Part shown: piece by piece, positions 898-39,411 of the stretch
Numbering within the stretch: the first letter of the stretch is position 1
Layout: every line of letters begins with the position of its first letter
Assembly (NCBI RefSeq): GCF_019649055.1
Contig: NW_026570249.1
Location: 806,001 to 870,000, forward strand
Direction of reading: 5' to 3'
DNA: 64,000 nucleotides
From: Paramacrobiotus metropolitanus
Taxonomy: Eukaryota; Tardigrada; Eutardigrada; Parachela; Macrobiotidae
The notes under the pieces: model-generated
Told to the model about the DNA's origin: nothing
The model's database searches: none
Seen by the model: only the letters and a program-made list of their open reading frames with translations
Made by a program: the position numbers and the translations under genes

Positions 898-3800
898 ATG
901 AACGGTTTTGCTTTCCTTTGTTTATTTGTATGGGTAAGTCTGCAACCTCGTTAAGTTGTTATGATTCGTATGAACTCGAATAAAAGTATGTTTGGTTAAT
1001 AGCGCCCATATTGCTGTCACTTTCATAAATTAACGCTATAGAGGACGTATAAGTTATTTTTTACAAGAATTATAAGTATTTTTTTAATTACGTACTCCTT
1101 TCATAAAAAATTGAAATTATAAAAATTGTCTTGCAGATAAGTGGAACAACAGCCGATATACGGCACTTTATTCCTTTGCAAGCTTCTGCCAGAATAACAG
1201 GTTAATAATACGTTGTTAAAAAATTATAGAAATTAAGATAAGTTAGTAGGATGCTAAGAGAACATGCGTGACCAGGAGGCTGCATACATACGCGTACAAT
1301 GCCTAGAAGAAACATTATAATTTTCAGAAAGCACTTTGCACATTTCCTCGGTTGTAATGATTTTGCATGCTGAGACTTGAAAGTTATTCGGACATATTGG
1401 TATATCGTGCATGTTATTAGTCTTAGTAACAACTTTGTGACACAATACAATATATTGTATCGCCACTACTCGTACTCTTTCGAAATTCCAGTAAAAATAC
1501 GTGATTTGTGTCTCACAACTATTAGTAATGTCAAAGCACGTTTATATAAACGTTTCGTTTACAACTATATGCACAATACCGCAAGAATGCATAATGTTGC
1601 AAATACTTTGTACTTTCGAGACTCTGCGATGAGTACCGGCTGTAATGTTTCGTTGTCAGATGACGATATCGTCGTTCTTCACGATGCGGACAACTTTGTC
1701 AGTGAAACGACAACAACACCTGTGTCATTGCCCGATCTCCCGGTTCCCAACTGGTCTTTCGTCATATCTGACGTTGTGCTTATCAGTTATGCCACACCAG
1801 AAGACCGGGATATTGCGCTCCAGCAGATTACCCAAGTCTGGCAGGATGCTCTAGGTAAGGCAAACTTTACAGTTTTCCGTCATCATTCAATTAATTGTTT
1901 TTTGTAAAACAAAGCTGCTACAATAACCATTATTTTTCATATAAATAATTTGATGTTATGCTAATTTTCTTAATTATGTTTCGTACGTTCTCATAGCGCC
2001 ACAAGTGAACGATGTCCAGGTCGTGTTAGTGGACGATTTGCCGGCTCCATCCAATCTCTCACACCAATACGCCCGCTCAAAAAGCAAAGCCAATCTGATC
2101 ATCTACGTTGTGCTGGGCAACACAGAAGACCCGATTGACACGAATGCCGCAAAACTGGCGTTCCGTGATGAACTGGCCGAAACCAAGATTCCGGTAACAC
2201 CAGTCAATCTCACATCGCCCGACGCTACCAACGTAGTCAATCACGCCACGAACGAAACATTCGCCGTATTGGATTCCGTGTGGGTCAAGTACAATACCCC
2301 GGAAGAGCGCGACGACCTTTTACGAAGAGTTAAAACTATCTGGGAATCATTACTAGGTAAACTACCACGTATAGATAAAATGTTGTCTCATTTATCATCC
2401 AGTTCTAATTTTACTCATCTGTAAAAGTACATATACACCTATAAAATTATTAAAATTGGTGCTGTTTTGCCAGCGGGAATGGCGTTCAATGTGCATTTGA
2501 CTCTGTTCGGCGATACGCCAGCTACCTCGGAAGCGTTGCCCCATTTGATTACGTATATTATTACCGGGCGCAAACTGAACAACGAACAAATTTCCGATCA
2601 AGATGTGGGGCTAAAACTCCAATTCCGAAATTTATTGCGTTCTTCCCAGTATGCCGGATTGTGGCCGGTTGCGTTCGCGCTACCCAAATTGTCCGATGTT
2701 TCCACCACGACAACCGCAACCACTGAGAAATTAATTACATCATCCAGTAAAACTGTAGTAAAAAGCCCGACGTTGTCGGTAAAAGAAACTCCACAACCAC
2801 ATAATACGGGGTCACCTTTCTGGATTACGGATAACTTGATATTACCTTACGAAACTGTAGATCAGCGGAATTTCTTCCTGCAACAGATCAAAACTTTATG
2901 GAATAAAGTATTAGGCAAGTCCATTTAACAAATAAGAGCTTCACATTTTATTCTACAAAAAACATAATTTTATCCGGATTTTTCACATTAGGAGCAGAAG
3001 CGACGGGGTTGGATGTCCGTTTCGTGGACAGTGTCAAAGCCGACAACGACACGTCGTCATCGCAAAGGATACCGGTGTACAATGTCACATACGAAGTCAG
3101 CGGATGGAGTGTTGATCCGAAAATTTTATTGCACGCACTGGAGCGCTTCCACCAGGCGGTGGCGGACGCCCAAGGAGGGGGCCAAAAAGATACAACGACT
3201 AAACCGCGAACACCGATAATGACGTCAAATAATAAAACCATTGGTGTAAAGGACAAAGGAACGCTGCAGCCTGGGACGTTAACTGTAAGCAAAATGATGC
3301 TTTGTTTTGTATCTATACAGAGTATCGAAACGTTCATTAGAATTTTTTTTCGAAAGATTGGAAGTACATCGAACGAGCCCCAGACTGTTAATCTGGATAA
3401 CGCGGCGCAAGAGTTCATGTGGTCGTTACCACAAGAAACCGTTCAGTTAACAGCGGCCGTTGATGTCGTCACGAAACCGCCCACAACCGTTCCGACCACT
3501 CTAACGCTGACCGTGGAAACAGCCACGCAGGACTTCGCCCAACCCTTATCGGCAAAGATTAACAATGACCTTTTGAAGATTCCGTCATTTATGCAGGCAC
3601 TACCTGACGATAAAACCGCTAAAAATCCTACTACGGTCCAGCCGGTGACCGAACCGCCTGCAACGACGACGTACGCGTCGGTCGATGCGCAAATTCAAGA
3701 TCTTATTCGGAAGCGGTTTGGTGGTGTGAATCCTGCTGGTATGCACGCGACGGTGTTTAATGAGAATATCATGTTTGAACTGAACACCAACGAGACCAGT

Positions 3801-6800
3801 GTTGGGGAAATTATGGAAGCTATTCGCCGAGTTTGGATGGATGCCATCGGTACGTTTGTATTTCTTTATTCATGCTAATAACGTATTATGCTGACCTATG
3901 TCAGAATGTATTATGACGTCGTCAATCGGATGATATGGCGCATATTTGTTTTGTTTACTGATGCATCGAATCGTACAAGTGCTGTTTACTGTACAACGTT
4001 AATTTTTTTAATCTAAACCGTGGTAAAGTCGGTGTATTTTTGAAGCTGGCGTAGTGCAGTGGCTTAAGTCCAATGCAACATGCCAACAGGGCTATTTAAT
4101 TCGAACTATACGTACGATGCAGTCAAATAGTTGCACGAAGAATTTTTATTCAGGATCCGAAACACAAGCTGATGTATTTTTATCCGTTGTGCGCAATGAT
4201 TCCGTGCAAGTTGGTCCAGTGGATTCTCGAACCACCATCCAGAACGTGGATTACGTTGTTCTGGCACTAACCCGTGCTGGTGATCTTGATGTGGAGAGCG
4301 TTCGAAGCCGCTTCCGCGAACTATTAGCCGGAGCCGGTATGACGAATATTATCCCAAAAACGGACCTCTTTTCCGGCCTGTTTGACCGTCGTAAAGTGAA
4401 CAACAACATCATTCTGGGATCGTTGTCAGTCAGTTTCACCGATAAAGAGCTGCTGAGCAATTTGACTGAAGCGTTGCAAAAGATATGGTCCAACGTTTTG
4501 GGTGAGAGAATACATATGTACAGTTGTTTGTACCTGCATTCTTTGACACCTTAAAAAATATTTAGAAACCGGCTACTTTGGATACAGTGGAAGAATTAAA
4601 AATTATTGATTAAATAAAAATGTTTTACTCGTAACGGTCTAATACTCTTTTTACAGGTAGCGATGCGACCGACGTCCAAGTTTCCATATACCGGGACGCG
4701 CCACATGCCCCAACAACCGCCATCGCCGGCAACGAACTGTACCATGACGTTTACTATGTCGTCTTAGTGCAAACTACGAAATCCGATATTGACGTCGACA
4801 CTCTTCGGGATAAAGTTCGCGAACTGTTGCCGACGATTGATATTGCCGGGGTGACCGTTATCCCACCGGTCAAGCACGAATCAAACGACATTCCCGGTGA
4901 CTCCAGTGACAAAACCTTGAGCAAGCAACAAGTAAGGGTAAACAGTTTGGTGATTATCAGTATTACTTTTCAATCATTTGCTTTTGATGTTCTGCAGACG
5001 TCGGTAAATGCCAACGATCCATCTGCAGATCCTCTTTTGGGATTACAGCTACAGCACAGAATTTTATTGAATTATTCCACTGAAGCGCAGAAGATTGATG
5101 AACTGGGGCAGATTCGGCAGCTCTGGTTTGACGTCTTTGGTATGCTGAAATTTTTTAACAATAGTACTGAGTAGATTTACCGTAACTGGGAATTTTCGTG
5201 CAGTGTCATTACCTCGTACCATGCGTAGTCGCGCAGCAGAAGATTGATGAACAAATACAGTAGTCCATAAACTACAAAGCAATCAAACTTGTAAATGAAA
5301 ATTTTTTTCGGATCGAGGGCAACTTTTTTCAAGCTGGTGCGATTTTATTGCTTTTCCATAGGTCAGTGTAGCACTTCGTGTTTAATTAGGTAATACTGTA
5401 CTTTATTTGAACTTTACACTGTTCAAACGGCTCTTGAAATTTTTGTATCTCTTTGACTTACTTGAAATAAACTTGACCCTGACATACAGTTAACTCGTTT
5501 TTTACGAACTAAAAGTGCACGAAATTTTGTCTGTAATGATGCGGTCAGTGGTCATGTTTAGGTCCAGACGTCAGCGATATCAAATTACGATTGGACAACG
5601 AGACAACGGTCAGCACCAGCACCGACGGATCAGCGTTGAACTACATTGAATACACCGTATTTGTGGTGACCAAGTCCACAAACTACGACCAAGAAGCGGT
5701 TCTGCAGAAATTCCGGCATAATTTAAGGAGTGCTTTCCTGAACTTCCAAGCATCGGAAGTACCGGAGGTCATGGTGGCCACTGGTCGTGATGACAGTGAG
5801 GTGTTCGTTAAACTCGACCAGCCAGAGCCGATTCGGTCGGTCCTAGTTTACGACAGCGTAGTATTTCTTTACACAACGGACAAAGAAAAGGAGCAAAAGC
5901 TGGATCAGCTGAAGGAAATTTGGGGAAAATCTCTCGGTATTTTATGTGACCTTTATGACATCTTACAAAAAACCTTTTCAAAAAAAGTTCTAAGTGTTGC
6001 TGCCGAAAAACATTGTGAATAACTGAATTGTATTTTTGTAGGATTGAAAGTTGTTGCTGTTCACGTGCGCCCAATTTTTGACGAAGCTGTGCAGAATTCC
6101 AGTGTGCACCACGTAGAGTACATTCTTGTGGCACTGACCAACGGTACCGCTTTGGATGCGGATGAAGCACGAACAGGAGTGCGCAAATATGCCGCTAGTC
6201 GCAATCAAACCGTTTTCGCCTTTCCGGACAAAAACACCCTGTTGCATACCATGCCAAGCACGGCTAATTTTGCTGTTGTACCTTCCGGAATTTTAATCCG
6301 ATATGCCACTGCACTGGACCTGAAAAACATGGTGCAGGTGATTCAAAACACATGGCAAAAAGTGTTAGGTAAGAGAGTAATGCAACGAGTAAAAATTAAC
6401 GAGACAATAAGGAAAGTGAGTATCTTAATCGACTGATTATTATATTAATTTGAAATAAAATATATATACTATATACACTATTTTACACCAAGTAAATTAA
6501 TTAAAAAATATGTAAAACGTATCAGTTTTAAAAAATGTTTATTAACTGGCTGTTTTAGGACAAAATGCGCCAAAAGTTGATGTTGTTGTATATGATGACA
6601 TCATCCGACCGGAAGACCAAGTCGTTGCCGGTGACCCGCATCCCGTTCACTATGTGTCCTACGTCGCCGTCATTCAAACAAGCGGAAAACCCATTAACAT
6701 TCCCACCGTCATAGCGCGTTTTCAGGAACTTCTATCCGTCGGCATGGATCGCAATGCCACCAAAACCATTCTCGTTAATTCCACAGCGACCATTTCGAAT

Positions 6801-9317
6801 TCTCCAAAACGAACACTCACAGCAACCGTCGTCAACGCATCCCTTCTCCCAAATATAACGAAATCAGAGTCAAATAACACAAGTACCTTTAACATTACGA
6901 TAAACCTCCAAAATCCGAGAAAGAGCCTGCTTTTGTCAAAAGCCAACGATACTGCAGAAGGCACTACAAAGGTCATGAATGTGGCTACGACATCAGCAAC
7001 TGTAACGAGTCGGACACCCGCCCTATCGGTTAAGATGGTCATTTCCAAAGCGAATGTTTCCAGTCCAACATCTTCAAAGGTGAGTTTTATTTTGTAAACG
7101 GGCTATAACTTAAAAAATGATGATATTTTACCATAAGACAAATTGGTGGGCTTTGTTTACGTACAGAAGGAAACTTTGACCATTTCGCCCGTTGCAAGTG
7201 CCGGTGAGCCAGTTTCCGTGCCACCGCTTCCGGCCGCTTTATTGATAAAGGATCATATTTGGCTCGTATATAAAAGCAATATCGAACGGGATAACTATTT
7301 GGGACAAATTCGGGACGTATGGAAAAAAGTCCTACGAGGTAAGCCCATCCCAGATATGGGCCGCAGTTATTAACGATGAATTCACAAAATATTTAATGCA
7401 CAGAGAGTACTCTGTACGTTTAACGTATACAGATAGTACGTACAGTAAATAGAAGTTAATGCACAGAAATTAAATTAAATATGATTCAGTATAGAAATGA
7501 CGTACACGCTATAATTTTAAAGGATTGTTTTCAGTCATCTAACTTTATAGCACAGCCAAGAAGTTTCAGCGTGTGCTTATTCTGCACTAGATTTCGGGGT
7601 ATCGAATGTTTCTCTGGAATTCGATTTTGAAGCACTCGATCATACCGCCAGCAATTTACCGAATTCCCACAAAGTGTACTACACCGTTCTTGGGACACAG
7701 TCCAACAAAACCGCCCACATTGACACATACGCCGCTAAGCACCGGCTGCGCCAAATCTTACCGACCGGAAAATTCATGTTCGGTTTTGACGTCGAAGAGG
7801 TCAACGAATTTAACAAACACGCTGCTCAGGGTATTTACAAGGATATTGTTGAGGAGAAGCCACCCAAAAAGGAAATTGACGAATATGACGAGATAGACGC
7901 CGCACCGGTGACCTCTAAAATTACGTCTAACGATCCTAAGATAGAGATTGTACGGTCTGTTATTCTGCAATATTCGGACGATGAAGAACGAGACGCGGAA
8001 GTGGATCAGCTGTTATTATTGTGGAATAAAATTACCCGTAAGTAAAAACTGCCACCCGGTAAAAATAACATAATTAAATTCTTTTGGCTAACTGGTAACG
8101 TATCTGTATAAGCTTATACTTATAGTTGCTGCAAAAGTTATTCTTGATATTTTGTAGGTAAAAACGTGACAATTATTCGTTTATCGGATAAAATTCTTTC
8201 CACGGATGAAACATACGCACCCGGAAGTGTGCACGAATTCAACTATACCGTCCAGCTCAATGCCAGCAAATCGTCACTGAACAAAACCGCTTTGCTAAAC
8301 CTGGCAACGGCCTTTGAAAACGCTTTACGCCTGGAAAAATTTCCTTTCGTTCTTAATGGATCCGAGCTAATTCATCCGGTTATTCCAGAACGCAAATTGG
8401 TGATTACACTCGGCTCGATTATACGGGATTTCAGCAACGTGACCTTTAACGGTGTACCCATCAAAAATGTGAATTTCTCGTCCATTGCGGAACAAGTGCA
8501 AGAGCAGCTACAAAATTCTAGTATTACTATAACACCGAGCTTAAATGGAAATTTTACCATTGCAATTAACAATCATACTCAAAATGTTTCGGCTACCAAC
8601 AAATCTCACATCGACCACGGAAAAAATGTTGTAAATGGATCATTGTACATCCGATATTTCAATGCAACGGATAAGGAAGTAGCGCTGGGAACAATGCGAA
8701 ACATCTGGAAATCGTTGTTCGGTCAGTAAATTACCGTGAAAACGATTTCTTCAGCAGTTTTTTCGATATGACAATTTTACAGTTTTAGGTTTCAGCGAAG
8801 GATTGGTTAATCTGACACTGCTTATTGACGATACCAAGCAGACAAACGCAACTAATTTGTTACCACGATGTCCATAAGGTCACCTACACCATCTGGAGTC
8901 CCATTGACGTAGACCTATCGCCACCGCAAAAGAAGTTTGACGGTTTTCTTCGTGCCAGCAACGCGCCGTTTTTATATTACAAAGCCCAAGGCAACAGCAC
9001 CGCAGCGCCGACGACTTTTAATGCAACTGTAGGTGCGAAGATTTCATAGCGACGTGTGCGGTCACTCTGGTATTATTGAACAAAACAAGCGTATGCAGAC
9101 TATGTAGTTATTCTTTTTGCGATGATTACACTATTTTATGTATTCTACTTCAGGAACCCTTGCCACTGTTCCTATAAAAAGAATGAAGCGGGTTAACTCA
9201 TATCGAGATGGAAGCCTATTTTTACCGTATATTGGGGGATTTCTGTCGCGTGCCTTGGACGCTGTATCCTACAGGAGTCGCTCTCCAATAAGAGCGATAT
9301 CGTTAATTAGGGAATAG
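898..9317 (+). CDS. Large secreted protein of ~12 repeated unknown modules
   Basis: I do not recognise this protein. Exons inferred: 898-933, 1137-1200, 1492-1854, 1997-2356, 2474-2914, 2992-3284, 3357-3849, 4154-4501, 4657-4931, 4998-5139, 5562-5936, 6042-6368, 6559-7079, 7167-7338, 7570-8037, 8158-8721, 8789-9032, 9154-9317 (about 1,880 residues). The first exon (MNGFAFLCLFVW) plus the start of the second makes a signal peptide. Each later exon or exon pair encodes one module of roughly 110-190 residues ending in a W-x-x-x-L-G helix, and almost all junctions are phase 1, so modules can be added or lost without breaking the frame. N-glycosylation sequons are frequent; cysteines are nearly absent, and there is no transmembrane segment. 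The last exon gives a basic tail ending at TAG 9315-9317. The exon at 8789-9032 is frameshifted. Start choice rests on the signal peptide; the second exon's donor (GTTAAT) and the start of module 1 are the least certain parts. Confidence 0.7.
1492..9032 (+). repeat. Array of ~12 diverged protein modules
   Basis: Modules lie at 1492-1854, 1997-2356, 2474-2914, 2992-3849, 4154-4501, 4657-5139, 5562-5936, 6042-6368, 6559-7338, 7570-8037, 8158-8721 and 8789-9032. The shared pattern is a short strand with acidic residues (V-x-V-x-L-x-D-D), then H-x-V-x-Y-x-V strand, a helix with F-R-x-x-L, a variable Thr/Ser-rich insert, a hydrophobic strand ending Y-x-x-x-x-E-R-D, and a final amphipathic helix. 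Final helices read for example DRDIALQQITQVWQDALG (module 1), ERDDLLRRVKTIWESLLG (2), QRNFFLQQIKTLWNKVLG (3), QKIDELGQIRQLWFDVFG (6), ERDNYLGQIRDVWKKVLR (9) and ERDAEVDQLLLLWNKITR (10). The order beta-beta-alpha-beta-alpha suggests a small alpha/beta sandwich such as a ferredoxin-like or SEA-like fold; that is inference only. Confidence 0.75.
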
Positions 9318-9890: not shown

Positions 9891-12758
9891 CTAAATGTGT
9901 AAAATATCTCTGTACTGATTCAAAACTGAAGAAAACTGCTGAATTAAATTTACTGTGGAGTTTAAGGCATGTTGGATAGGTGAACCTTGTTGCCGGCTTG
10001 CGGTCCCCTGCAATACATCCGCAGAAACATCCCAAAAGGTATTCCCACCTTTATCTCTTCCGTCTACAAATTCTTGCGTAAGCGGTACTGCATGACCCTC
10101 TTCGTATGTTGTCGTAGAAATAAACATAAATGTATACTCACCGGATGTGCATTTTGTTCCCCGGTAGCCGCAAAGCGGTTCATTCAACGGCGGACTCGAA
10201 CGATTATTCGGCCATACAATCTGACGAATACTGTTATCTAGCGGGTCGCGGCTTGGCTGCAGCCATCGTCGCCGGGCTGAGTACTCCATAACGGGCTGGA
10301 AAAATAGCGATTGGTTAACCCATATATAGTGACCTTCGGTGGTCGATATATTTTTGTCTGATCAAAAAAATCGATTGGATCAGTTTGTAAAGTGCCGAAT
10401 GACAAAAAAATTACAGATACTCTCTTTTTCATCACGGTCAATCAAAGTACAAGTTTACGTGTATACCATGGAAATACCTGAAAATTGCCATTTATATCCG
10501 GTTGGCTGAGAATCCAATCGGACTGGCGATCTCCAGTAGCGTTGATGAAAATCTCCTGTCCTAAGATTGTGTACGTGCGGTTCCACATCAGCCTGGACAC
10601 TGCCGCGCCATCGTGCAGATTCTCACCAGATCCCGACGTTGCCATTTCGTTTAGCGTCTTTGAAAGACATTCGTAAAACTATTTCTTCCGGTAATGTTAT
10701 GACTACACATATATGCTGAATATTTACCTGACCATAAATGGATAATGCATAGTAGTAGGCCATGGTAAATGGACTGACCTATAACGAAATTAGGCTATCA
10801 AAAAATATGCCATGCCCGTCGACGGGTCAGCAATTTAAAATCGATACGCTTATGCTACCGTAACGGACACGCAGTTAGAAAGAAAAGGTCATCAGTCGCA
10901 AGTCGGGCACCTCTAAATCGAATCCATTATAGTATGGGTCACCATACTTTTCTTTGATAAGTTGTTTCAGCGCCGGGGTAAAATTGCGATACTCTGGTTT
11001 GTCTTCGTACGATGAAGAGGTTGATATTTTGAATAGCGACCGAAACGCCAAACGCGCCTCCTAATGAGTGAGAAAGTAGGAAGATTAATGTTCACTTCTT
11101 CAGGAAAAAACAGCAAGTCCTTTCAATCTCCTGTTACTGTTTTACGTAAACCAGGAGAACTTACGTACCGCATCCCGTCCATCGTTTTTTGAATACCAGG
11201 TAATGTTGCCGACACTAGGGACTGGATGTCGAAAAGGTTCAAATGCAAAATACACCTTCAACAAAGCGGAACTATCAGATTAATTATGGAAAGAACTCAT
11301 TATGAATCTCTAAAGCTGTTTGCAATTTTCAATTAATTTACGCCCTTACGTATTCCCCATTCGTCATCTGCATATCGGAAGCAGCCAGCTGCGACATAAT
11401 GCAAACATTGAGAAAATTATGAGATACAAACTTTTTAAATTTTTCTGTACCATAATGGGTCGAATGCGATTGCCCTGCGCAATGACGATAACAACTAGCA
11501 CAAACTGAATAAAAGTACGCCGACAACAAGCATAGCCAAGTTTTTAATTTTATGTATATAAGTACCTTCTTCTGAGGTTAACGTTTAGAGCAAATATTTT
11601 TACCTCGGGCAACAGCCTTAATTTCTTCCAGAGAGTCTATTGTATTTTGCCTGTCCTTGCCTTGGATGTAGTACCAGCTGGCACTTATATTATAGATGTC
11701 GCGCAAAGTATTGGAGACCGATCTACACACGGACATAGCCAGAGCAGCCGAAGGGAACATCCCACTTCTGTCGCTACCCTCCGTCCCATCGCACAAAATT
11801 CCGACTGTATTATAACCGAAATTACTCAGTATCTTGTACAGAACTACGCTGACATCTTCCGCGCGATAAGGAGAAAGACGTGTGAGTGTGGGGTAACGCT
11901 GCTTGTCATAAAAACCCGAATCTCCCGAATTCCTACAATTTCACTGCGTATTTTAATGATTCTTTTTTATGAGCCTTGACCGTACCACTTACGTGGTCAT
12001 TATTGGTATGTTCCATTCTGTAAATAAAGATATTAGTTTACACTTTATATACCTGTACGTGCGTACAACTGCGTTCGTAATGCAGTACTGTATACATAAC
12101 ATCCGGTTGCTACATTATCATTACAAATTACATACATATAAATTACAATCACCATCAATATGTTGATTAATTAAGCAAAATAACGCGCTATATTACATTT
12201 ACTCTAGAATAATCATATTGCAGCGGAGCAGTGCCGAACCACAGTAATAATAAATTAAAATTATATGCTTTCGTTAGTGTACTTCTGCTCATAATACTAC
12301 TCACGCACATCTCACCTGTTGCGAAATTTGCCAATGATTTTGCTGGCAGTGGGCAATCTTAAACCAGGTAGAAGTGAGATGTCGATTATGCAAGTACATA
12401 TTAGAAGCAAAATACCGTAGCTGCTGTACGTACCTGAGCCAATCATGGCCAAAACGGGATCGCCAGTGGTTTGCCTGTAATAATAGCGCGCAGCCCAGTT
12501 GAGTGCTAGTGATCCCGTGTCATAACAGGCCTCCCAAGGGTTTGGAAGAAACCTTTCTCCCGTCACATTCAGTAGTGAACCATAGTTTGTTCGCAAGAGC
12601 TCTTCCCCTTTGTCCCATGCCGCCTTTGCGCTTTGATCTGCCACCGGGTTCCTGCCAGTCAGAGCAAATTCCATTAACGCGATATCAAGCGTTGACGCAT
12701 AAGTTGTAAATACAGCACCGACAAGAAACAAAGTCACTGGTGTCTGTGGTATTTGCAT
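9891..12758 (-). CDS. Secreted natriuretic-receptor-like ectodomain, copy 1
   Basis: Exons on the minus strand: 12758-12434, 12357-12316, 12017-11993, 11932-11604, 11494-11451, 11388-11350, 11255-11169, 11060-10911, 10778-10728, 10657-10478, 10295-10142, 10063-9891 (532 residues). It starts with a signal peptide (MQIPQTPVTLFLVGAVFTTY). The body follows the type I periplasmic-binding-like ligand-binding fold of natriuretic peptide receptors and membrane guanylyl cyclases: a G-S/P-G-x-C loop at exon 1/2, E-W-x-I-P, Y-P-T-L-T-R, MAYYYALSIYGQ, NRTYTILGQEIFINATGDR and the juxtamembrane PPLNEPLCGYRGTKC. In receptor cyclases a membrane helix, kinase-homology and cyclase domains follow; here exon 12 gives a polar 57-residue tail and stop. 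The same tail occurs in the other two copies. Likely a soluble ligand-binding or decoy protein (inference). The exon 8 donor, GTGCCC, is unusual; copies 2 and 3 have GTACGT. Confidence 0.8.
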
Positions 12759-14148
12759 ATTTGCAGATGTAATAAATTTTGTATTCTATAAAATTTTAAA
12801 TTTTCTCGGTGAGAGGATTGCACATACGAAATTATTATATGAGTGCTCGTTGGCGGCAAAAACAATAATGCTACTCAACAGTCTGCATCATCCTGGGTTT
12901 GTGTACGAGTACTTACTTCTCCGCGGTGCAGCGGCAAACCAGAATGATTACAATATCGTGATTCACCAGCATAACAGGCCCTCCGGCCACAATCTGATTA
13001 GTATATCCGCTAAGAAGTTTTGTGTTTATTAGAATACGGCTTGATAGCCACAATTAAAATTTGCATCCACTTGACGAAAACGTGTTCCTCCATTCTGAAA
13101 ACTTTTATATGAGTATGACAGGGAAAAAATTCCGGTTGTGCTGACATGGTAATGACAGTCAGCCGTAATGGATAGATGAATGATCGGCGTGAAATGTCAC
13201 ATAATAATAAAGCCTTTTTCGACAACTGCGATTTACTGTTTTGCGACAGGGGTGCACTCAACAACCTTTATAATTTTATAACATTCTATAATTATATATA
13301 CTGTTTTTGGACATCTTTGTTGCAGTTGCTAAATGGACGGGCAGGAAACAAGTTCGCGTAGACCTTGGCCACACGCCGCCCGCTTCCAGCCGCTTCGCTT
13401 GCAGATCATATGTGGCTTTGTACACACAAACAACACCGAACAGGATAACTGCTACCGTAGTATATGTGTACCTGGGACAAATTCGAGGCGTATGGAAGAA
13501 AGCTTAACGAGGTAACCACGACCATAAATCTTATCGGATACTGATACGTATCCGATAATTAAGTCTTACCGGATCTTGTCCGCTTTACAAAAAAATAACT
13601 GTAATTTTAACTTCCGCAAGTTTGCCATGTTATACATGACCGTGCTCAGTGTTTTTGACCATTTGATGCATTACTAACCGAAACCTGGCTTGTCGGTGTG
13701 AACTGCTAGTTGATCCGAAGTCTATCATTAAATTATGTAATGCCTTAAAATACGTTCAGTTTTAAAAAGATCCGACTGCATATATTTGCAGTGAAGTATG
13801 TATGTACAAAATTTCCGTCGTGCTGCGCTTTAATTTTTGCTCCACGCTGCAAATCAACAAATGGTAAATCATCTATTATTCTGCAAAAAATAACTCGGGA
13901 GGGCCGTGAGATGCGGTCGGTACAACCGTACAACGTAAAAAAAATTATCTGCATCACAACAATAACAAACGCATTAACATAACAAATGACGACACAGTCA
14001 AATTTACTACCGTTTTCTGTTGCGGTACTAAACAGCTTAGGACACTTGATAGGGTTTGCTCAATCCAGCGGCAGTTACCTTTGTTTTCTCAAAATTTTGG
14101 GATTTATTGAAAAATTAAATGGAGAAAACTGAACGTATCTGTCATCGT
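12759..14148. other. Duplicated spacer between receptor copies 1 and 2
   Basis: Upstream flank of copy 1 followed by downstream flank of copy 2. Stretches around 12930-13090 and 13160-13260 resemble 17510-17690 and 17800-17890, so the flanks were duplicated with the genes. It contains the modular-gene fragment at 13333-13512. No intact gene seen. Confidence 0.6.
13333..13512 (+). pseudogene. Fragment of module 9 of the modular secreted gene
   Basis: The sequence resembles 7195-7340, the second exon of module 9: matching stretches include CCGCTTCC-GCCGCTT, GATCATAT-TGGCT, CGAACaGGATAAC, and GGGACAAATTCG-G-GTATGGAA followed by a GAGGTAA donor-like end. The reading frame is broken by small indels and a stop directly after the Lys-Ala codons that match W-K-K-V. 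Immediately downstream, 13620-13980 resembles 9355-9700, the 3' flank of the modular gene. The piece was therefore carried along when the receptor genes duplicated and is no longer coding. Confidence 0.75.
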
Positions 14149-17100
14149 TTAAATGTGTAAAATGCGCCTATACTGATTAAAAACCGAAAAAAACTGCTGA
14201 ATTAAATCTACGGTGGAATTTAAGGCATTTTGGATAGGGGAACCTTGTTGCCAGCTTGCTGTTCCCTGCAATACATCCGCAACAACACCGCCAACGGTAT
14301 TCCGACCACCTCCATCACCTACAAATTTTTGGGTAAGTGGCATTCATTCTTGTGCTCGTATACTGTCGTAGAAATAGACATAAATTTTATGCGAGTACTA
14401 TCTGCCCTCACCAGATACGCATTTTGTTCCTCGGTAGCCACAAAGCGGTTCATTCAACGGAGGACTGGAACGCTTATTAGGCCATACAATCTGACGAATA
14501 CTGTTGTCCAGTGGGTCGCGGCTTGGCTGAAGAATTCGTTGCCGGGCGGAATACTCCATAATGGGCTGTCAAAATAGCAACTGGTCACTCATTAGCGCCC
14601 TTCATTGATCGGTACATGAGTGCTTTTGCTCCACACCATGCTTCCATAACTGGTCAAAATTGCCGAGCGACCAAAGGCCCAAATTTAGTTTTGCCCCACG
14701 GCCAGAGTGCAGTATAAGTTCTTACGGACACACAAAATACCTTGAAATTGCCATTAACGTCGGGTTGACTAAGAACCCAGTCTGATTCGCGGTCTCCACT
14801 AACATTTATGAAAATCTCCTGTCCTAAGATAGTGTACGTTCGGTTCCACATCAGCCTGGAAACTGCCGCACCGTCGTGCGGATCCCCGCCGGATCCCGAC
14901 TTTGCCATTTCGCTTACAACCTTTGAAGTACACTCAGAAAACGTATAAGAATTCCAAAAATATTATAAAACTCAGTAGCGACAGATATTCACCTGGCCAT
15001 AAATGGACGTTGCAAAGTAGTAGGCCATGGCGGATGGGCTGACCTTTAAAGAAAGCAAGAATAACACTCCATAGATAGAAGCACTAATTGTCGGCGGGTC
15101 AGAACACAAAATTAATGCACCACCGCTGTCGTAATGCAAACGCAACCAAATAGGATTGGTCCTTAGTCGCGCTTCCACGTACCTCTTCTTGATCAGAGAG
15201 CGGGTAACCATACTTTTCATTGGTTAATTGTTTTATCGCCTGGGTGAAATTGCGATATTCTGGGTTTTCTTCGTACCGCACAGGGGGTGATATTTTGAAG
15301 AGCGACCGAAACGCCATACGAGCATCCTAAAGCCAAAGCATAAGATGAATATGTAACGTGATGACACTTCTACATAAAAAGAAATCATGTCCCTTCAATC
15401 TCTTATTTAGATTGTTTTACTCGGCGGCGGAGCTTTCATGTACTAACCTCATCCCGTCCATCTAGGTTTCCTGAACGCCATGTCATGTTGCCGACAACTT
15501 GTGGATTTTGAAAAGGTTCAAAGGCAAAATATACCTCCAAAAGAACATAAGATGGTATATTTTATTCATAAAATATACAGAGACAAGCGTCGCTCACAAC
15601 GATACATTTAATGGAAAGTACCTAATGTGCATGTGTTTCTTACGTAATCTCCGTTCGTCATTTGCATATCTGAAGCAGCCAACTGTAAATAACTATATAT
15701 TGCAAGCATCGAAAATTCGTAATCAAGGTAAAAGTTCGCAGTGTTGCTGTACCATAATGGATCGGATGCGGCTGCCGTGTGCAATGATGAGAACAACTAA
15801 AAACAAATCAATGAAAATACGCTGACAATAAGCGTTGTCAAATATTCTTGCTGTTTCTTCTTCTGCCGTTAACGTTTTGAGCAAACATGCATGATTACCT
15901 CGGGCAACAGACTTGATTTCTTCCAGATAATGCATAGTGTCTTGCCTGTCAGTGCCATTGATGTGGTATCGGCTGGCGCTAGATTATAGGTCCAGCGCAA
16001 GGTATGGAAGACCGATGAACACATGATTATAGCCACAACGGACCTTCTGCGGCCATCATTTCGTATCATCACACAAAATCCCGACCGTATTGTAACCAAA
16101 GCCACTCAGTATCTTTGTAGAGAGCTACGTTGATTTCTTCCGGAGAAAACGGGGTCACCCGTGTGAGCGTGGGATAACGCCGTTTGTCGTAAAAGGACGA
16201 ATGTCCCAAATTCCTACAATTTTACTGGGATTTACGGTACGAATGTTGTTGTAATGAGCGAATTAGCCGCACCGATGTGACTTACGGAATCAGCATTGGT
16301 ATGTTCCATTCTGTAAAAAATTCAGTAATTTACACTTTGCAGTCAGTACCTGGACGTGCAATCAACTGCGCTCATAATACGGTACTGTCACATCCGGCTA
16401 ATATGTCATTATTACCACCAAGAAAAAACCAAACAATAATTTTATAGTGCCATGAAACCTCCCGGCTGTTCGATTCAGCTTTCAGGCAGCCATATTACGA
16501 GCAGGTTACCGGTTTTCGGACTTTTCTTCAGATTTTGCCGTTTTTACCGCTAATTAGCGCAGATTGCTTTATAAATCTTCCAAGATTTTTTTCATCAACC
16601 TGAAAAGCTTAGCTTATGCAAATGCTGAAGCATTGGACTGTTAATACGTGCGTCAGTTTATTTTTGTGTTTAAAAGTGTGCGATTAATATCTTCAATATA
16701 AGAACTTCAATACAACATTGCTGTGTTGTGCGTTTCAAAATGGAATTACTAAAGCGCAACCATATGTGTTGCTTAACTGGCTCAAATAGTGCACTATATT
16801 GCAGATACTCTAAAAAATTTCTTTGAAACAGTGCACTGCTGTTTGTCACTAAAATTATTTACTTTTTGGGTGCACTAATAATTATGATATGCACAAGTAT
16901 GTCGCACCTGTTGCAAAACTGGCCAAGGATTGTGTTACTGGTGAGCACTCTAAGATCAGGTAGAAATTAGATGGCGATTATGGCATCATTATGCATCCAT
17001 TAAAGCAATGTCACAGCTGGTGTACCTGGACCAATCATGGCCAAAACGGGATTGCCAGTGGTCTGCATGTAATAATGGCGTGCAGCCCAATCAAGTGCCT

Positions 17101-17359
17101 TGGATTCCGCGTCTGGCGCGTCATAACAAGCCCCTTGCTCATAAAATCTGGCTCCCGTCACATTTAGTAGTGAACCATAATTCGTTCGCAAGTGCTCTTC
17201 TCCTTTGTCAAATACGGCCCGTGCGCTTTGACCTACTGCCGAATTTCTGCCAGACAGTGAAAATTCCATCAAACCGATATCCACCGTTGCCGACGTATAA
17301 GTTGTAAAATATACAGCAAAGATAAAAAGCAAAGGTAAGTCTATCTGTAGTCTTCTCAT
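14149..17359 (-). pseudogene. Natriuretic-receptor-like ectodomain, copy 2, exon 4 broken
   Basis: Twelve exons collinear with copies 1 and 3: 17359-17026, 16949-16908, 16310-16286, 16213-15899, 15796-15753, 15682-15644, 15534-15448, 15326-15183, 15043-14993, 14920-14741, 14565-14412, 14318-14149. Signal peptide (MRRLQIDLPLLFIFAVYFTT) and eleven exons keep open frames and good splice sites. Exon 4 is 315 nt instead of 329 and does not translate through: an extra base after CTCTACAAA near 16120, a net deletion after the ILCDD motif near 16020-16080 that brings in a TGA, and a one-base loss near 15980 are visible against both sisters. An upstream in-frame ATG (17518) exists, but alignment with the sister copies favours 17359. 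Damage limited to one exon suggests recent loss of function or a sequencing fault; I call it a pseudogene with moderate confidence. Confidence 0.7.
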
Positions 17360-18067
17360 ATTTTGCAGATATATTTGGGATTTACAATGATTTCTAAATT
17401 TTGCTCGGTTAGTGGATTGTACGTGCGAAGTTACGTAGAAACTCTCTACAAAACCAAACGGGCTATACAAGCAGCGTGCATCATCCGGGTTCTGGTACTT
17501 CTCCGATGCCACCGGCAAACCAGATTTAAGTACTTTGTACTAAAATACGGGGACTAACATAACAGACCCTCCAGCCACAATCTGATTAGTATATCCGTTA
17601 AGGAGCTTTTGCATTTATTAGAGTATGGCTTCCTAGTCATAATTAAAACAGAAACATACGTGTAATCCACCTGACAGAAACGTGTTCCTCTGTTCAATAA
17701 GATTCTTTACTTCTATAATTATACGAGGACCACACAAAAAAATGCCGGTTTGGCCGACAATCTAGTCATGGCAATGCAGCCATACTGGATACAGTAAATG
17801 AATGAAGATCAACACCGCGTCACATAACAAAGCCGTTTTCGGAAATTGTTATTTACGATTCTGAGAAAGAAATGCAGTCATCAACAGTTATACAATATGT
17901 TATGATTTTGCCTGTTTTTGGACAGATGCCGCCTTTATACTGATGCTAATGCGTTGACGGGCTAGCAGCTTTAGTAAGCAGACCATTCCCAAAAAAATCA
18001 GTCGCTGCTTTTGCAACATATACGGATTATTTGTAAAAGCAGCTAGAGACGGTTGTCCTTGTCATTG
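17360..18067. other. Spacer between receptor copies 2 and 3
   Basis: Duplicated flank sequence, similar to 12930-13260 in its first half. No open frame of substance and no clear copy of the modular-gene fragment here. Confidence 0.5.
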
Positions 18068-21000
18068 TTAAATGTGGAAAATGCTTCTGTACTGGTTCAA
18101 GACCGAAGAAAACTGTTGAATTAAATTTACTGTGGAGTTCAGGGCACTCTGGATAGGTGAATCCTGTTGCCGGCTTGCCGTCCCCTGCAATACATCCGCA
18201 ACAACAACCCGAAAAGCATTCCTGTCTCCTCCACCACCTGCAAATTCTTATGTAAATATTTCTGCGTACGCTTCCTTATATGTTGTCGTCCACAGACATA
18301 AACATCTACGGAGTAATTTACACTCACCAGATACGCATTTTGTTCCCCGGTAGCCGCAAAGTGGTTCATTCAACGGCGGACTGTTGCGCTTATTCGGCCA
18401 TACAATCTGACGAGTGCTGTTATCCACTGGATCGCGGCTTGGCTGAAGAACTCGCTGCCGAGCCGAATACTCCATAACGGGCTGCCGAAATGACTTATTT
18501 GTTAAGACTACGTACATTCATTACTCTGTACAGAGTATAATAAACTAAAGAGCGACGGCGTGGTACTCACTCGTGATTCGCCATTAATTAACCTAACGAA
18601 TCGCGACTGAAATTCATGCTTTTAAGTTTTCCTAAATGTTTAGTCTGTAAACCGTAAATGCGCTAAAAGATTGGTTAGCTAATGGTGAGTGACCCTCGTT
18701 GATCGAGAGCTGCGGTTTTGCTCGATTGTATCACTGCACCAAAAGCTTCACTTGCACAGTAGGGAGACAATTAATGTTATTGTTAGAATTACGCACTTCC
18801 GGGGTGCCGAAACAAATAGGGAAAGGAAATACCTTAAAATTGCCATTATCGTCCGGTTGGCTGAGAACCCAGTCTGATTCACGGTCTCCATTAGCATTTA
18901 TGAAAATATCCTGTCCAAGGATGGTGAACGTACGATTCCGCATTCGCTTGGAAACTTCCACACCATCGCGCGGATTCCCACCAACTCCCGACGTCGCCAT
19001 TTCGCTTAGAACCTTTGAAATAAATTAGGTAAATTCTTATATGTATTTTCCAGTGATGTTGGGGATGCAGCAGTGCTCTATTTACCTGGCCATAAATGGA
19101 TAGTGCGTAGTAGTAAGCCATAGTGAAGGGATTGACCTTTTAAAACCCAAACAGGAAACATGTAATTATTCGTCAGAATTTAAAATTAATGTATCTGCTG
19201 TAGTGGACATGCAATCACATCAGAAAGGTCATCGGTCGTGCAATCACGTACCTCCTCTCCAGTAGCGTATTCGTAGCTATATTTTTCTTTGGTAAGTCGC
19301 TTCAGCTCTTTGGTAAAGTTGCGATACTCTGGAGATTCTTCGGGACGCGTTGATATTTTGAAAAGTGAGCGAAACGCCGTACGAGCGTCCTGGTGAGTAA
19401 GAGAATTTAGTTAACGTGTAGAAGTGTAGGGGAAAAGGACCATGCCCGTTCAAAACTGCTATCTTGTCGTTTAATTAAGGCTTTTTGCGCCACTGCTGAC
19501 TACTTCTATACGTACTTCGTCTCGTCCATCAGAGCTGTCCGAACGCCAGGTGATGTTACCGACCATTTCTGGACTTCGAAAAGGCTCAAATGCGAAATAT
19601 ACCTTCGAAAACCAGAATCTGTTAGATGGATTATCGATTACACGTATCCCTAAACCTTTCTTGAATTAGATTTCTTGACTTACATAATCGCCGTTTGTCA
19701 TCTGCGCATCGGAAGCAGCCAGCTGTGACATAATGCAAAACTGTGAAAATGTGTTGAGATACCAACTTTCTAATTTTTTTCTGTACCATGATGGGTCGAA
19801 TGCGGCTGCCATGTGCAATGATGACGACAACTAGAACAAATTACACAAACGTTAACTCTAATATTTGTGCTACAAAAGCGGAAATTACATATAATAGGCA
19901 TACTCTAGTTCCTTCAAGCATTCTTTTTTTTACAGTAATATGTTTGAACTCTGAAGCAGATTTACGATTTACCTCGGGCAATGGACCTGATTTCTTCCAA
20001 ATAGTGCATCGTATTCCGCCTGTCGTTGCCAGTGATGTAGAACCGGCTGACACTTAAATTATAATTCAACCGCAAAGTGTCGAAGACGGATGTACACATT
20101 GGTACAACGAAAGAGGAAGCAGGAGACCTCCCAGTTCTACCGCTATCGTCCGTGTCATCGCACAAAATCCCTACTGTATCGTAGCCAAAACCACTCAATA
20201 TCTTGTACAGAACTTGGTTGACATCATCCGGAAGAAACGGGGAAATCCGCGTCAGTGTGGGATAGCGTCGCTTGTTTGAAAAAGCAGGGTCTCCTGGATT
20301 TCTACAATTTCACGACGAATTACGTTTGCTGCTTTTATGAGCACTAATCGTACTTCTATACAACTTACGGCATCAGCATTGGTATTTTCCATTCTGTGAA
20401 AAACGCAGCAATTTATCTGTACGCAAAACATGATTCATAACTTCTTCCCCGGTATCTACATGTCCCTGATGCACGCGGATTAAGTAATTGAAAATTTTTA
20501 ACATACGGATTCACAATTTCCCTCGTTAATATGAAACTTCAACTTACAGATAATTTAAATTTACTACGGGTACAGTACTGAATTTCACTATAGCAGTAGT
20601 ACTGCTCCTCAACAGACAACAGTATCTGTACAAATACACATCAAAACGTTCCAATGCAATACAAAATTTTGCAGATAAAACAGAAACGATATAATTTTTT
20701 TTTGCTGTTATACTGCTCACGTTCGTCTTATAACCGTACCTGTTGCCAAACTGGCCAAGGATGTTGCTGCCACTGCACACTCTAAAAGCGTTTGGAAAAT
20801 GAGACGTAATTAGATACAAAGTCGCACCTGTTGTATCTACAGCATTTAAAGATGTATTTTGTAAGTACCTGGACCAAGCATGGCCAAAACAGGATTGCCG
20901 GTGGTTTGTGTGTAATAATATCGAGCAGCCCAGTTAAGTGCTTTTGGGGCCATGTCGATACAATTTGTCACATCTTCGCGATAAAACCGTGATCCTGTCA

Positions 21001-21193
21001 CATTCATGAACGAACCGTAATTCGTCCGCAAGAGCTCTTCTCCTTTGTCAAAGACAGCAGGTGCGCTTTGAGCTGCTGTCAACTTATTTCCAGTCGACAG
21101 AAAAAATTCTATCAAAGCAATATCTAATGTTGCCGAAGCGTAAGTTGTAACAACAGCAAAGACAAAAAATAAAAATGTATGCAGTCTTCCCAT
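18068..21193 (-). CDS. Secreted natriuretic-receptor-like ectodomain, copy 3
   Basis: Exons: 21193-20869, 20781-20740, 20393-20369, 20301-19973, 19830-19787, 19722-19684, 19602-19516, 19389-19252, 19136-19086, 19012-18833, 18481-18328, 18237-18068 (527 residues). All phases match and no frame breaks are seen. Signal peptide MGRLHTFLFFVFAVVTTYAS; start chosen at 21193 because it aligns with copy 1, although an in-frame ATG lies 11 codons upstream. Receptor-type landmarks: GPG-E-C loop, YPTLTRISPF, GYDTVGILCDD, VVVIIAHGSRIRPIM, LAASDAQMTNGDY, VYFAFEPF, NRTFTILGQDIFINANGDR and PPLNEPLCGYRGTKC. The protein ends 55 residues after the juxtamembrane cysteine pair with a conserved tail containing an N-S-T glycosylation site and an amphipathic helix, with no membrane anchor. 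It would act outside the cell as a soluble binding domain (inference). Confidence 0.82.
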
Positions 21194-22508: not shown

Positions 22509-24032
22509 ATGTTTTTCATTGCCGGCCTACTTTTTCTAAGTCTAGGTACGCGCCAATTCGTGACCTTTTTGCGGTTATGCAGTGCCTGCAAAGAGCGGAT
22601 AGGCTGTTGTATTCTTTTCCAGTTGTATTGGCATGTTTTATTGATTAGCCAGTGCCGCTCTACAGTAGTATAGGCTACTGGGGCCAGCAGCCTATACTAC
22701 TGTAGAGCGGCACTGGATTAGCTATACTGTGCTTTATCCCTAAGACCCTAACACGAGTGATTTTAGTTTACACTGTAAGCTGCGCACATGGGCACGGAGG
22801 TTATGACAATTTGTTGCTGTTTTTTTAGTTGCAAATTTAACGGCGCAACAGTACACTACCACTGTACCGTCCTCTTCAAACACAACGACCGCATGTATTT
22901 GTACTCTGGAATATAATCCTGTTTGCGGAGTTGATGGAAAAACGTATCCTAACGCTTGTTCTGCACGCTGTGCAAGTAAGGCAAAGGGAAACTAAACTCA
23001 AAAAAGCTCAGTGGAACTAAACTTATGAAAAGTTATTTTTGTAACATGCATTTTTGTAACAAACGCATAAACTGATCATACTTGTATTAATACTTGTATT
23101 ATAACGGTGCACGTGTGCGGCAACAACCTCTATAAATGAAATAGCCTAACTATCATGAATTTGGTGGTGGTGACCTTAACGGCGGCAAACGTTTATAATT
23201 TCATTTCGCTATAGATCAGTTTCCTTTTTATCTTTTATAGATGTTGCGGTAGCTACGCAAGGGGAATGCGGAATCACAACCACCTCTAATCCAGGATGCA
23301 TTTGCACAGCCATTTTTGCGCCGGTTTGCGGTGTTGATGGACAGACTTATGCCAGCGCATGCGTTGCGGGGTGCGCCCGTGAGTGCAGTATGATTTTCAG
23401 TATACAGTATATATAAAATGAATAAATGTTGATGCAGGAGCTGGTAATTAGCATTTAAAACCTTTCATTTCTGTAAGACTTAAATGTTTTGCAGATATCG
23501 CAATAGCTTCGCAAGGCGAATGCCCCACAATGACATCAACAACGACGACCACGACAATGGCATCAACAACGACATCCCAAACCGTTATGTTCTGCTCGTG
23601 TTCCGACATGATTATTGACCCCGTTTGTAGTTCAAGTGGACAGACATACATCAACTCTTGCCTGGCGCTTTGCAGTCGTAAGAAACATATACGTAAAAAT
23701 AGTGCCGTATTTTGACAAAAAATTTTAATGAGTTCATTTAATTTAAACTTAGATGCAACAAACAAAACTCCCGTTAATATAAAGCTTTCACCTTGTATTG
23801 CCAATTTAATTACGTGTTGGAAGAATGTGTATTAACTACGGTAGAGTGTTATATACATATTAATATAAATACATACTGTACCTGACTTAAAAGGTTTGAA
23901 CTAGCCATGTTGTTAGACGCGGGTGCAACCATTGCTCATTGGGGATGCTGCGATCCGACGTCCTCTTCCTGTCCGACTACGACAACCACATCAACGCCAA
24001 CATCATCGCCCACAGTATCAACATATACATAG
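22509..24032 (+). CDS. Secreted three-domain Kazal inhibitor
   Basis: Exons 22509-22545 (signal peptide [12 protein letters not shown]), 22829-22975, 23241-23378, 23495-23677, then a less certain final exon. Each middle exon carries one Kazal core; the closing cysteine of each domain (QGEC) comes from the next exon, and junctions are phase 1. Domain 1 has [16 protein letters not shown], putting Leu at P1 (second residue after the second cysteine); domain 2 has [16 protein letters not shown] (Ala); domain 3 has [17 protein letters not shown] (Asp) after a Thr-rich linker. These would be serine-protease inhibitors outside the cell. The end is unclear: an exon from 23757 would give a short tail ending near 23834, or one at 23917-24032 gives a Thr/Ser-rich tail resembling the start of a fourth repeat. 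The second is used for the end coordinate. Confidence 0.72.
22644..22721. mobile_element. 68-bp foldback element with ATTAG duplications
   Basis: Two perfect 28-base inverted arms (22649-22676 and 22689-22716) surround a 12-base centre. The pentamer ATTAG stands directly outside both arms (22644-22648 and 22717-22721) and looks like a target-site duplication. It lies in the first intron of the Kazal gene at 22509-24032. It has no coding capacity, so it would be a non-autonomous foldback or MITE copy. Confidence 0.75.
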
Positions 24033-38370: not shown

Positions 38371-39411
38371 TTAACATGTGCAAAACAGCAGTTGGAATTT
38401 TCTCAAGAAAGCCATAATATCAGATCGTATTCCCGGCATGATACCGGCAAAAAAGACAGGATCCAACGCGGGTTGCAAAACGAACACACCTTGACAGAAC
38501 TCCAGTGTTACGGTATAGGACGATAAATCCACAAAACACCACACTGTATAGAATACCACTAACGGCGTCCAGCATAAAATAATGCTCAATGTCAGCACCG
38601 TTACCACGGTAAAGGAATTATTGCCGCTCTCACCGGGCCGGGTCAGCTTTGCCCGTTGGCCGGTTGAGGATGTCACGCGATGTCCGCTACTGCGAAGCGA
38701 CAATGCACGATTGAGAATTTTCACCCTGCGATACTCTCGCCGCATATATAACAAATACGGATACGCTCCGATGATCACCACATTGGGCAGTGCAAAGGTC
38801 ATAAACTGAGCCGTCGTATTCCACGCCGCCATTTTATCGATGTTCAGTAAACAGCCGCTGGTTTCAATGGGAAGCCGGTACCAGACCGCATCCATCACGA
38901 CACCGGGAAGGTACACAATATGCACATACATCCACACCGCCGCCACCATGCACACCGCAATCTGCACCGAATGATGTCGACGGTAAGCATGCGGAAAGGT
39001 CACCGCCCAGATACGATTGATGGTGATCAGGACGTGGGAGTACATAACAATGCCGCTGGGGATGTTGAGAGCGTATAAGTATAGTGAGCAAAGAGGGTCG
39101 CCCAGCCACCAGTACGGCGAGATAAAATTCAGGATGTCCAAGGGATTATCGAGAACGGCGAAGAAGATATTGGACACGAGGACGCTGGACAGGTAAATGT
39201 TGAAGGGGATGTTGAAGCGTTTGTTGATGATAAACAACGCCAGTATTCCGCCGTTGAGAAGGACTACGCAAGGGAAACTGATGGCCTCCAGCGCCGGTAT
39301 GAAACTCCATTGGTAGCGAAACTTTGCCGAAGTGTTGGTGGCCGTGTTGTCTGTTGCGCTACTCAGACTTTGATTCATTATAATTATAGATACTTCGGAT
39401 CTGTGAAGCAA
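38371..39411 (-). CDS. Orphan rhodopsin-class GPCR, single exon
   Basis: One uninterrupted frame of 346 residues with seven hydrophobic segments. N-terminal sequons NQS and NTS suit an extracellular end. Landmarks, numbered from the first Met: N53 in TM1 (LNGG), Cys108 after the WWLGD loop (disulfide Cys 3.25), N132-R133-I134 at the DRY position, CWTP in TM6, and LDPVFF in TM7. The TM2 Asp (2.50) is replaced by Asn81, while the NPxxY Asn is replaced by Asp317, a swapped pair. The ligand cannot be inferred. Met12 (39378) is an equally good start. A lack of introns beside intron-rich neighbours may mean retroposition, though many GPCRs are intronless. Confidence 0.85.
   Translation of the reverse strand: MLHRSEVSIIIMNQSLSSATDNTATNTSAKFRYQWSFIPALEAISFPCVVLLNGGILALFIINKRFNIPFNIYLSSVLVSNIFFAVLDNPLDILNFISPYWWLGDPLCSLYLYALNIPSGIVMYSHVLITINRIWAVTFPHAYRRHHSVQIAVCMVAAVWMYVHIVYLPGVVMDAVWYRLPIETSGCLLNIDKMAAWNTTAQFMTFALPNVVIIGAYPYLLYMRREYRRVKILNRALSLRSSGHRVTSSTGQRAKLTRPGESGNNSFTVVTVLTLSIILCWTPLVVFYTVWCFVDLSSYTVTLEFCQGVFVLQPALDPVFFAGIMPGIRSDIMAFLRKFQLLFCTC

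Follow-up and report, generated by a model that had tools for sequence, protein, structure and literature searches.

Candidate soluble receptor guanylyl cyclase paralogues in a tandem array of the tardigrade Paramacrobiotus metropolitanus

Introduction

Can a family of membrane receptors give rise to a soluble one through a change in a single exon? This question is raised by a 64 kb stretch of the Paramacrobiotus metropolitanus genome (contig NW_026570249.1, here C29; the whole stretch is called the window), whose minus strand carries three head-to-tail genes related to the ectodomains of receptor guanylyl cyclases (rGCs), each with a predicted soluble tail at the place where a transmembrane (TM) helix would be expected. 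An earlier note on this DNA had described the three genes as a set with a shared tail exon. It had proposed to compare the tails of copies 1 and 3 by the ratio of non-synonymous to synonymous substitution rates (dN/dS), to match the ectodomain against receptor-family profiles and to search for exons encoding TM and cyclase parts. The analysis reported here leads us to lean, if only slightly, towards the view that the genes encode secreted, soluble rGC paralogues, likely ligand traps or carriers.

Three genes with a shared exon structure

Gene modelling yielded 12 exons with GT-AG introns per gene, neighbouring copies being spaced by 708 and 1390 nt:

9891..12758, minus strand: copy 1, 12-exon gene (gene model, 532 aa; signal-peptide-like start, ANF_receptor ectodomain, predicted soluble tail)
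10142..10295, minus strand: copy 1 exon 11, ending in ...CGYRGTKCTSG, phase-1 donor GTGAGT
9891..10063, minus strand: copy 1 exon 12, predicted soluble tail and stop (from gene model and dN/dS)
14149..17359, minus strand: copy 2, 12-exon layout, exon 4 frameshifted as assembled
15899..16213, minus strand: copy 2 exon 4, small indels, frame lost
14412..14565, minus strand: copy 2 exon 11, phase-1 donor GTGAGG
14149..14318, minus strand: copy 2 exon 12, predicted soluble tail and stop (from gene model and dN/dS)
18068..21193, minus strand: copy 3, 12-exon gene (gene model, 527 aa; ANF_receptor ectodomain, predicted soluble tail)
18328..18481, minus strand: copy 3 exon 11, ending in ...CGYRGTKCVSG, phase-1 donor GTGAGT
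18068..18237, minus strand: copy 3 exon 12, predicted soluble tail and stop (from gene model and dN/dS)

The reading frames of copies 1 and 3 are uninterrupted, with identical exon phases. Exon 11 ends in LCGYRGTKC(T/V)SG at a phase-1 donor, followed by an intron of 78, 93 and 90 nt in copies 1, 2 and 3, respectively, and then by exon 12. The strand, coordinates, exon number and splice sites of the earlier note were thus borne out by the gene models; its claim that every copy keeps the whole ectodomain through CGYRGTKC stands for copies 1 and 3 and fails for copy 2 because of the exon 4 frameshift.

Exon 12 as a coding exon

The tails encoded by exon 12 comprise 56–57 residues and share, as had been noted before, an ADVLQGTAS core, an NST sequon and a stop at the same position in all three copies. 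Over the 43-codon tail core from DVLQG to the stop, i.e. excluding the first 13–14 codons of the exon, which look less conserved, Nei-Gojobori dN/dS was 0.167 for copies 1 and 2, 0.128 for copies 1 and 3 and 0.094 for copies 2 and 3. The other two frames of the same core gave values of 1.9–2.2 and 1.2–1.7, and a third-position bias of the differences was seen in the proposed frame only. The tail core also lies below exons 5–11 (0.19–0.30) and exons 1–3 (0.41–0.49), the ectodomains of copies 1 and 3 as a whole comparing at 0.31 over 478 aligned codons. As judged from these substitution patterns, exon 12 is spliced and coding, and purifying selection acts on it in a single frame, which agrees with the earlier assertion of a real coding exon. 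That the tail stems from read-through of intron 11 is ruled out by the intervening 78–93 nt intron together with the frame specificity of dN/dS. An alternative acceptor within exon 12, TTGCAG, was rejected because it would open the frame with a dN/dS of 1.2–1.7, which contains stops in copy 2.

Structure prediction from the three window tails suggests two helices, spanning residues 8–23 and 28–54 of 56, with a mean predicted local distance difference test score (pLDDT) of 80 in the best model and 65–77 in four others. Hydrophobic-moment shuffles of ten tails gave a weak signal (p 0.03–0.17).

Identity of the ectodomain

An NPR-like extracellular ligand-binding domain, the first hallmark of an rGC, is present in copies 1 and 3: both match the Pfam ANF_receptor profile (E-values of 4.4e-31 and 3.1e-36, respectively) in a profile comparison of the kind suggested earlier, and copy 3 matches the PDB chains of NPR-A (3.3e-29) and NPR-C (2e-24). 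Six cysteines occupy corresponding places in copies 1 and 3, and an N-terminal hydrophobic leader resembles a signal peptide as judged by eye. Many rGC ectodomains contain the Cl-site motif S(x)nGPxC, as stated in a passage of PMC5225109; at the GPxC position, copies 2 and 3 read GPEC and copy 1 reads GSDC.

A full-length relative and the missing membrane and enzyme parts

The nearest full-length relative of the window genes is M8 (members outside the window are labelled M here), a complete rGC on contig C229, running from 52695 down to ~44885, which comprises an ectodomain, a TM exon and the kinase-homology, dimerisation and cyclase regions. Ectodomain identity with M8 amounts to 59% for copy 3, 52% for copy 1 and 69% for the relatives M3 and M4; two more distant full-length cyclases, on C163 and C79, are 36–38% identical to the window copies. 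In all three cyclases, the exon that follows exon 11 starts with EQ and encodes the TM helix, and in M8 it follows the same phase-1 boundary as exon 12 in the window. A cyclase gene on C163 (L016, L017) recurs on C79 (L018), possibly as a haplotype copy or an assembly duplicate.

When tblastn was run with pieces of M8 that cover its kinase-homology, dimerisation and cyclase regions, no match was found in the 64 kb window; as far as the DNA tells, the refuting condition of the earlier note, splicing to a membrane and cyclase exon, finds no support. The same pieces matched six of 28 loci longer than 100 bases: L006 and L015 (C229, M8 itself), L016 and L017 (C163), L018 (C79) and L020 (C6). Likewise, the M8 TM piece found nothing in the window by tblastn; it matched only L006, its own source, and missed the TM exons of C163 and C79. 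Because such a query would miss a diverged helix, the absence of a TM segment from the window genes rests on the low hydropathy of the tails and on a scan of the DNA 3′ of each copy. The maximum 19-residue hydropathy (KD19) was 0.51–1.33 in 11 soluble tails (0.51–0.63 in those of the window) as opposed to 2.76–2.85 in the TM exons of M8, C163 and C79. The single TM helix that follows the ectodomain in rGCs is therefore lacking from the window tails by hydropathy, and for the kinase-homology and guanylyl cyclase domains no match was found in the window. Downstream of copy 1, no stretch reached a KD19 of 1.9; hits at or above this threshold lay downstream of copy 2 at ~13993 (KD 2.61) and ~12993 and downstream of copy 3 at ~17833. 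As candidates for a hidden TM exon, these were judged to be chance occurrences.

At the level of the genome, a search for the class III cyclase domain PF00211, a profile that includes adenylyl and soluble cyclases as well, gave at least 200 matches at the exon level, with 150 of 849 first-look candidates scored, pointing to a very large cyclase complement.

A wider family of ectodomain-only genes

The array was first taken for an isolated triplet, a view that has to be given up: it is one part of a larger family, to which a full-length cyclase is also related. Using copy 3 as the query, matches were obtained on C29, C8, C229, C233, C367, C132, C15, C163, C79, C77 and C6, and 20 loci on seven contigs (C29, C8, C233, C367, C132, C15 and C77) are ectodomain-only genes or fragments of such genes. 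This number refers to the loci examined and is not a genome total; it comprises the three window copies, M1–M7, M11–M16 and M17–M20 and leaves aside the C229 fragments M9 and M9e as well as smaller pieces on C8, C233 and C367. An exon-by-exon ANF_receptor search gave no match on C29, the contig of the window itself, and its listing is thus an undercount. The end of C229 repeats the M9 fragment region in opposite orientation (L006, L007), again possibly a haplotype copy or an assembly duplicate.

Ten of the 19 modelled segments are open through exon 11 without frameshift or stop (M2, M3, M4, M8, M12, M13, M14, M16, M18 and M19), exon 4 of M13 being split over 4.7 kb and the 5′ end of M18 being incomplete. 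Five are incomplete (M5, which was followed to exon 6 only, M9, M15, M17 and M20) and four are frameshifted (M6, M7, M9e and M11), as is M1 outside the 19. The pieces of M20, exons 1–4 at C77:545114-546108 and exon 11 plus tail at 565378-565779, may be one gene. The ectodomain of copy 1 shares 41–49% identity with those of ten family members from outside the window, either soluble or unclassified.

The family ends in several ways. Long tails resembling those of the window occur in M18 on C15 (44 residues) and on C77, with a shuffle p of 0.0002 in pairs with copy 1 and a shared C-terminal end and stop; the N-glycosylation sequon LN[SA]T is kept in all five long tails (three in the window, C15 and C77). 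The copy 3 tail alone, used as a genome query, matched only the three window copies, and the C77 tail came to light when the C15 sequence served as the query. Short tails are seen in M3, M4, M12, M13, M14, M15 and M16, where a phase-1 donor at the same place leads to an exon of 24–29 codons and a stop; that of M3, for instance, reads EQRNQYQQLVAAVVNLFEVIKGMIA and then stops. Of these, only M3 and M16 start with EQR, as does M8; the others start with KQ (M12), GQ (M15), KE (M4) or KP (M13 and M14). M2 and M19, read by eye, have no GT donor after exon 11 and run directly into a stop, a GC donor being possible.

In a tree of 16 rows, the window copies group with M17–M19 (support 100/99) and the short-tail genes with M2 (93/96), the tree giving M8 no firm place between these and the outgroup.

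Interpretation and alternatives

The slightly favoured interpretation, secreted soluble rGC paralogues, would imply the following course of events. A full-length cyclase, like M8 on C229, may have founded the family once its membrane exon no longer encoded a hydrophobic helix and had acquired a stop; tandem duplication would have followed. The proteins would be secreted and would bind the family's own extracellular ligands, or close variants thereof, which they would sequester or carry. Signalling by the membrane-bound cyclases could thereby be lowered or reshaped, in the way that Drosophila Sdr, a tested precedent from another receptor family, acts on the insulin receptor. The helical tail and its glycosylation sequon might keep the ectodomains soluble, and perhaps paired, without a membrane. 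By analogy with Sdr, a decoy or carrier role is plausible. A more elaborate version, which we put forward tentatively and which may well go too far, holds that in this lineage the exon for the membrane helix turned, without a change of position, into one for a pairing tail that is amphipathic and glycosylated. The outcome would be a repertoire of secreted ectodomains in pairs, encoded by many genes, that forms an extracellular buffer or carrier layer for the greatly expanded membrane cyclases. If correct, a membrane receptor family would have yielded a soluble one by a single-exon change that kept position and phase, and the genes would be a concrete candidate for extracellular control of cyclic guanosine monophosphate (cGMP) signalling in tardigrades.

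Several observations weigh against this interpretation. Copy 2 and several relatives are frameshifted, and copy 1 has an altered Cl site. A diverged TM helix could escape the tblastn search, in which the M8 piece recognised only M8. The likeness of the 11 tails to TM exons is not significant in most pairs (shuffle p 0.018–0.90 with the M8 TM exon and 0.039–0.95 with that of C163); since this similarity is weak, the case for descent of the tail from a TM exon is built on position and phase. Significant likeness between long and short tails is confined to some pairs: p is 0.001 for copy 1 with M12 and 0.028 for copy 3 with M12, and 0.06–0.59 for copies 1 and 3 with the tails of M3, M13 and M15 (six pairs). 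Finally, the tree does not decide between one and two origins of the soluble form: in the approximately unbiased (AU) test with 15 rows, p was 0.263 for 12 rows, the soluble genes together with M17, as one clade and 0.186 for a clade of M8 and the window genes, and a clade of M8 and the short-tail genes has a support of 67/61. As for the frameshift of copy 2, the species sequenced as Paramacrobiotus sp. TYO is one that we take to be P. metropolitanus. Its published assembly was built from Nanopore and Illumina reads (PMC8277472), and the frameshift may therefore be an assembly error.

The same data can be read in other ways. Instead of acting as free traps, the secreted ectodomains could be modulating subunits that pair with membrane cyclases of the same subfamily in a dominant-negative or ligand-specifying manner. 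Receptor cyclases are dimers, with heterodimers described in C. elegans (a passage of PMC5225109), and the dN/dS of the helical tail core is below that of the ectodomain, as expected of a pairing element. Still, no receptor-cyclase dimer with one partner lacking a TM helix is known to us, a point at which no search was aimed, and we consider such a role unlikely. Secreted binding proteins with new ligands, i.e. small-molecule or ion carriers of chemosensory function or of the body fluid that are unrelated to cyclase signalling, would fit the divergence of the family (41–49% identity between copy 1 and the ten outside members), the peak of dN/dS in exons 1–3 and the altered GPxC of copy 1; yet none of the six cysteines is lost and the overall match to the receptor persists, and we rate this explanation as less likely again.

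That the array consists of decaying receptor fragments without function is very unlikely. It would account for the lost frame of copy 2 and for the four frameshifted and five incomplete segments among the 19, and it would fit the codon changes found in copy 2 only, with a synonymous to non-synonymous count of 1:9 in exons 1–3 (20:11 in exons 5–11 and 6:5 in exon 12; the corresponding counts are 9:11, 17:16 and 1:2 for copy 1 and 14:7, 26:15 and 7:4 for copy 3). Decay is, however, difficult to reconcile with the dN/dS between copies 1 and 3 of 0.31 in the ectodomain and 0.13 in the tail core, or with C15 and C77 tails that retain the end, the stop and the sequon. Least probable of all is an incomplete gene model in which exon 12 is skipped by transcripts that splice to a membrane and cyclase exon farther away. 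The hydrophobic open stretch 3′ of copy 2 and the weaker ones at ~12993 and ~17833 would speak for it, but the 64 kb hold no kinase-homology or cyclase match, the copies lie only 708 and 1390 nt apart, nothing 3′ of copy 1 reaches the hydropathy threshold and exon 12 is under in-frame selection.

Other features of the window

Outside the array, the window contains the following:

22807-23712, plus strand: three Kazal-type serine protease inhibitor domains in open frames (best Pfam E-values of 2e-9, 4e-8 and 1e-6)
~1600-8730, plus strand: exon-like open frames often ending in QI..W...LG, perhaps a multi-repeat protein unknown to Pfam (none of four frames tested scored above the Pfam cut-off)
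36382-37146, plus strand: ferroportin-like exon (PF06963, E-value 9e-63)
38374-39420, minus strand: rhodopsin-family G protein-coupled receptor in a single open frame (PF00001, E-value 2.4e-19)
41589-42623: possible chemosensory seven-transmembrane gene, under its Pfam cut-off

Comparison with known systems

A tardigrade expansion of receptor-ligand-binding proteins is already in print: the orthogroup OG0000104 (H. dujardini, R. varieornatus) has 284 members, 276 of them from tardigrades, with a receptor ligand binding domain (PMC5531438). The passage concerned offers no other explanation for the expansion and mentions no secreted architecture; the window genes may or may not belong to this group. 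Of 20 hormone-receptor orthologs that H. exemplaris expresses exclusively at egg day 3, most are atrial natriuretic peptide receptors, according to a passage of PMC6925440. Among the matches listed from the openly licensed literature, no title or abstract opening dealt with secreted receptor-cyclase ectodomains.

The window genes share with membrane guanylyl cyclases of the NPR-A/GC-A type the ectodomain family, the cysteines and, as seen in M8, the phase-1 boundary at which the ectodomain exons end; they differ in that their tail lacks a TM helix and no kinase-homology or cyclase part was found. NPR-C, another ectodomain homologue (PDB match of copy 3 at 2e-24), has no cyclase and is thought of as a ligand sink. 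It is membrane-anchored with a short cytoplasmic tail, and its order of ectodomain, TM helix and short cytoplasmic tail is not found in the window genes, whose tails are without a TM helix.

A further parallel is Sdr of Drosophila, a secreted InR paralogue without TM and catalytic domains that interacts with ligands, as described in a passage of PMC12398695. Sdr belongs to a different receptor family, and the window genes form a tandem and multi-contig family whose secretion and function are predicted from sequence; what the two have in common is a receptor ectodomain with neither a TM helix nor a catalytic domain.

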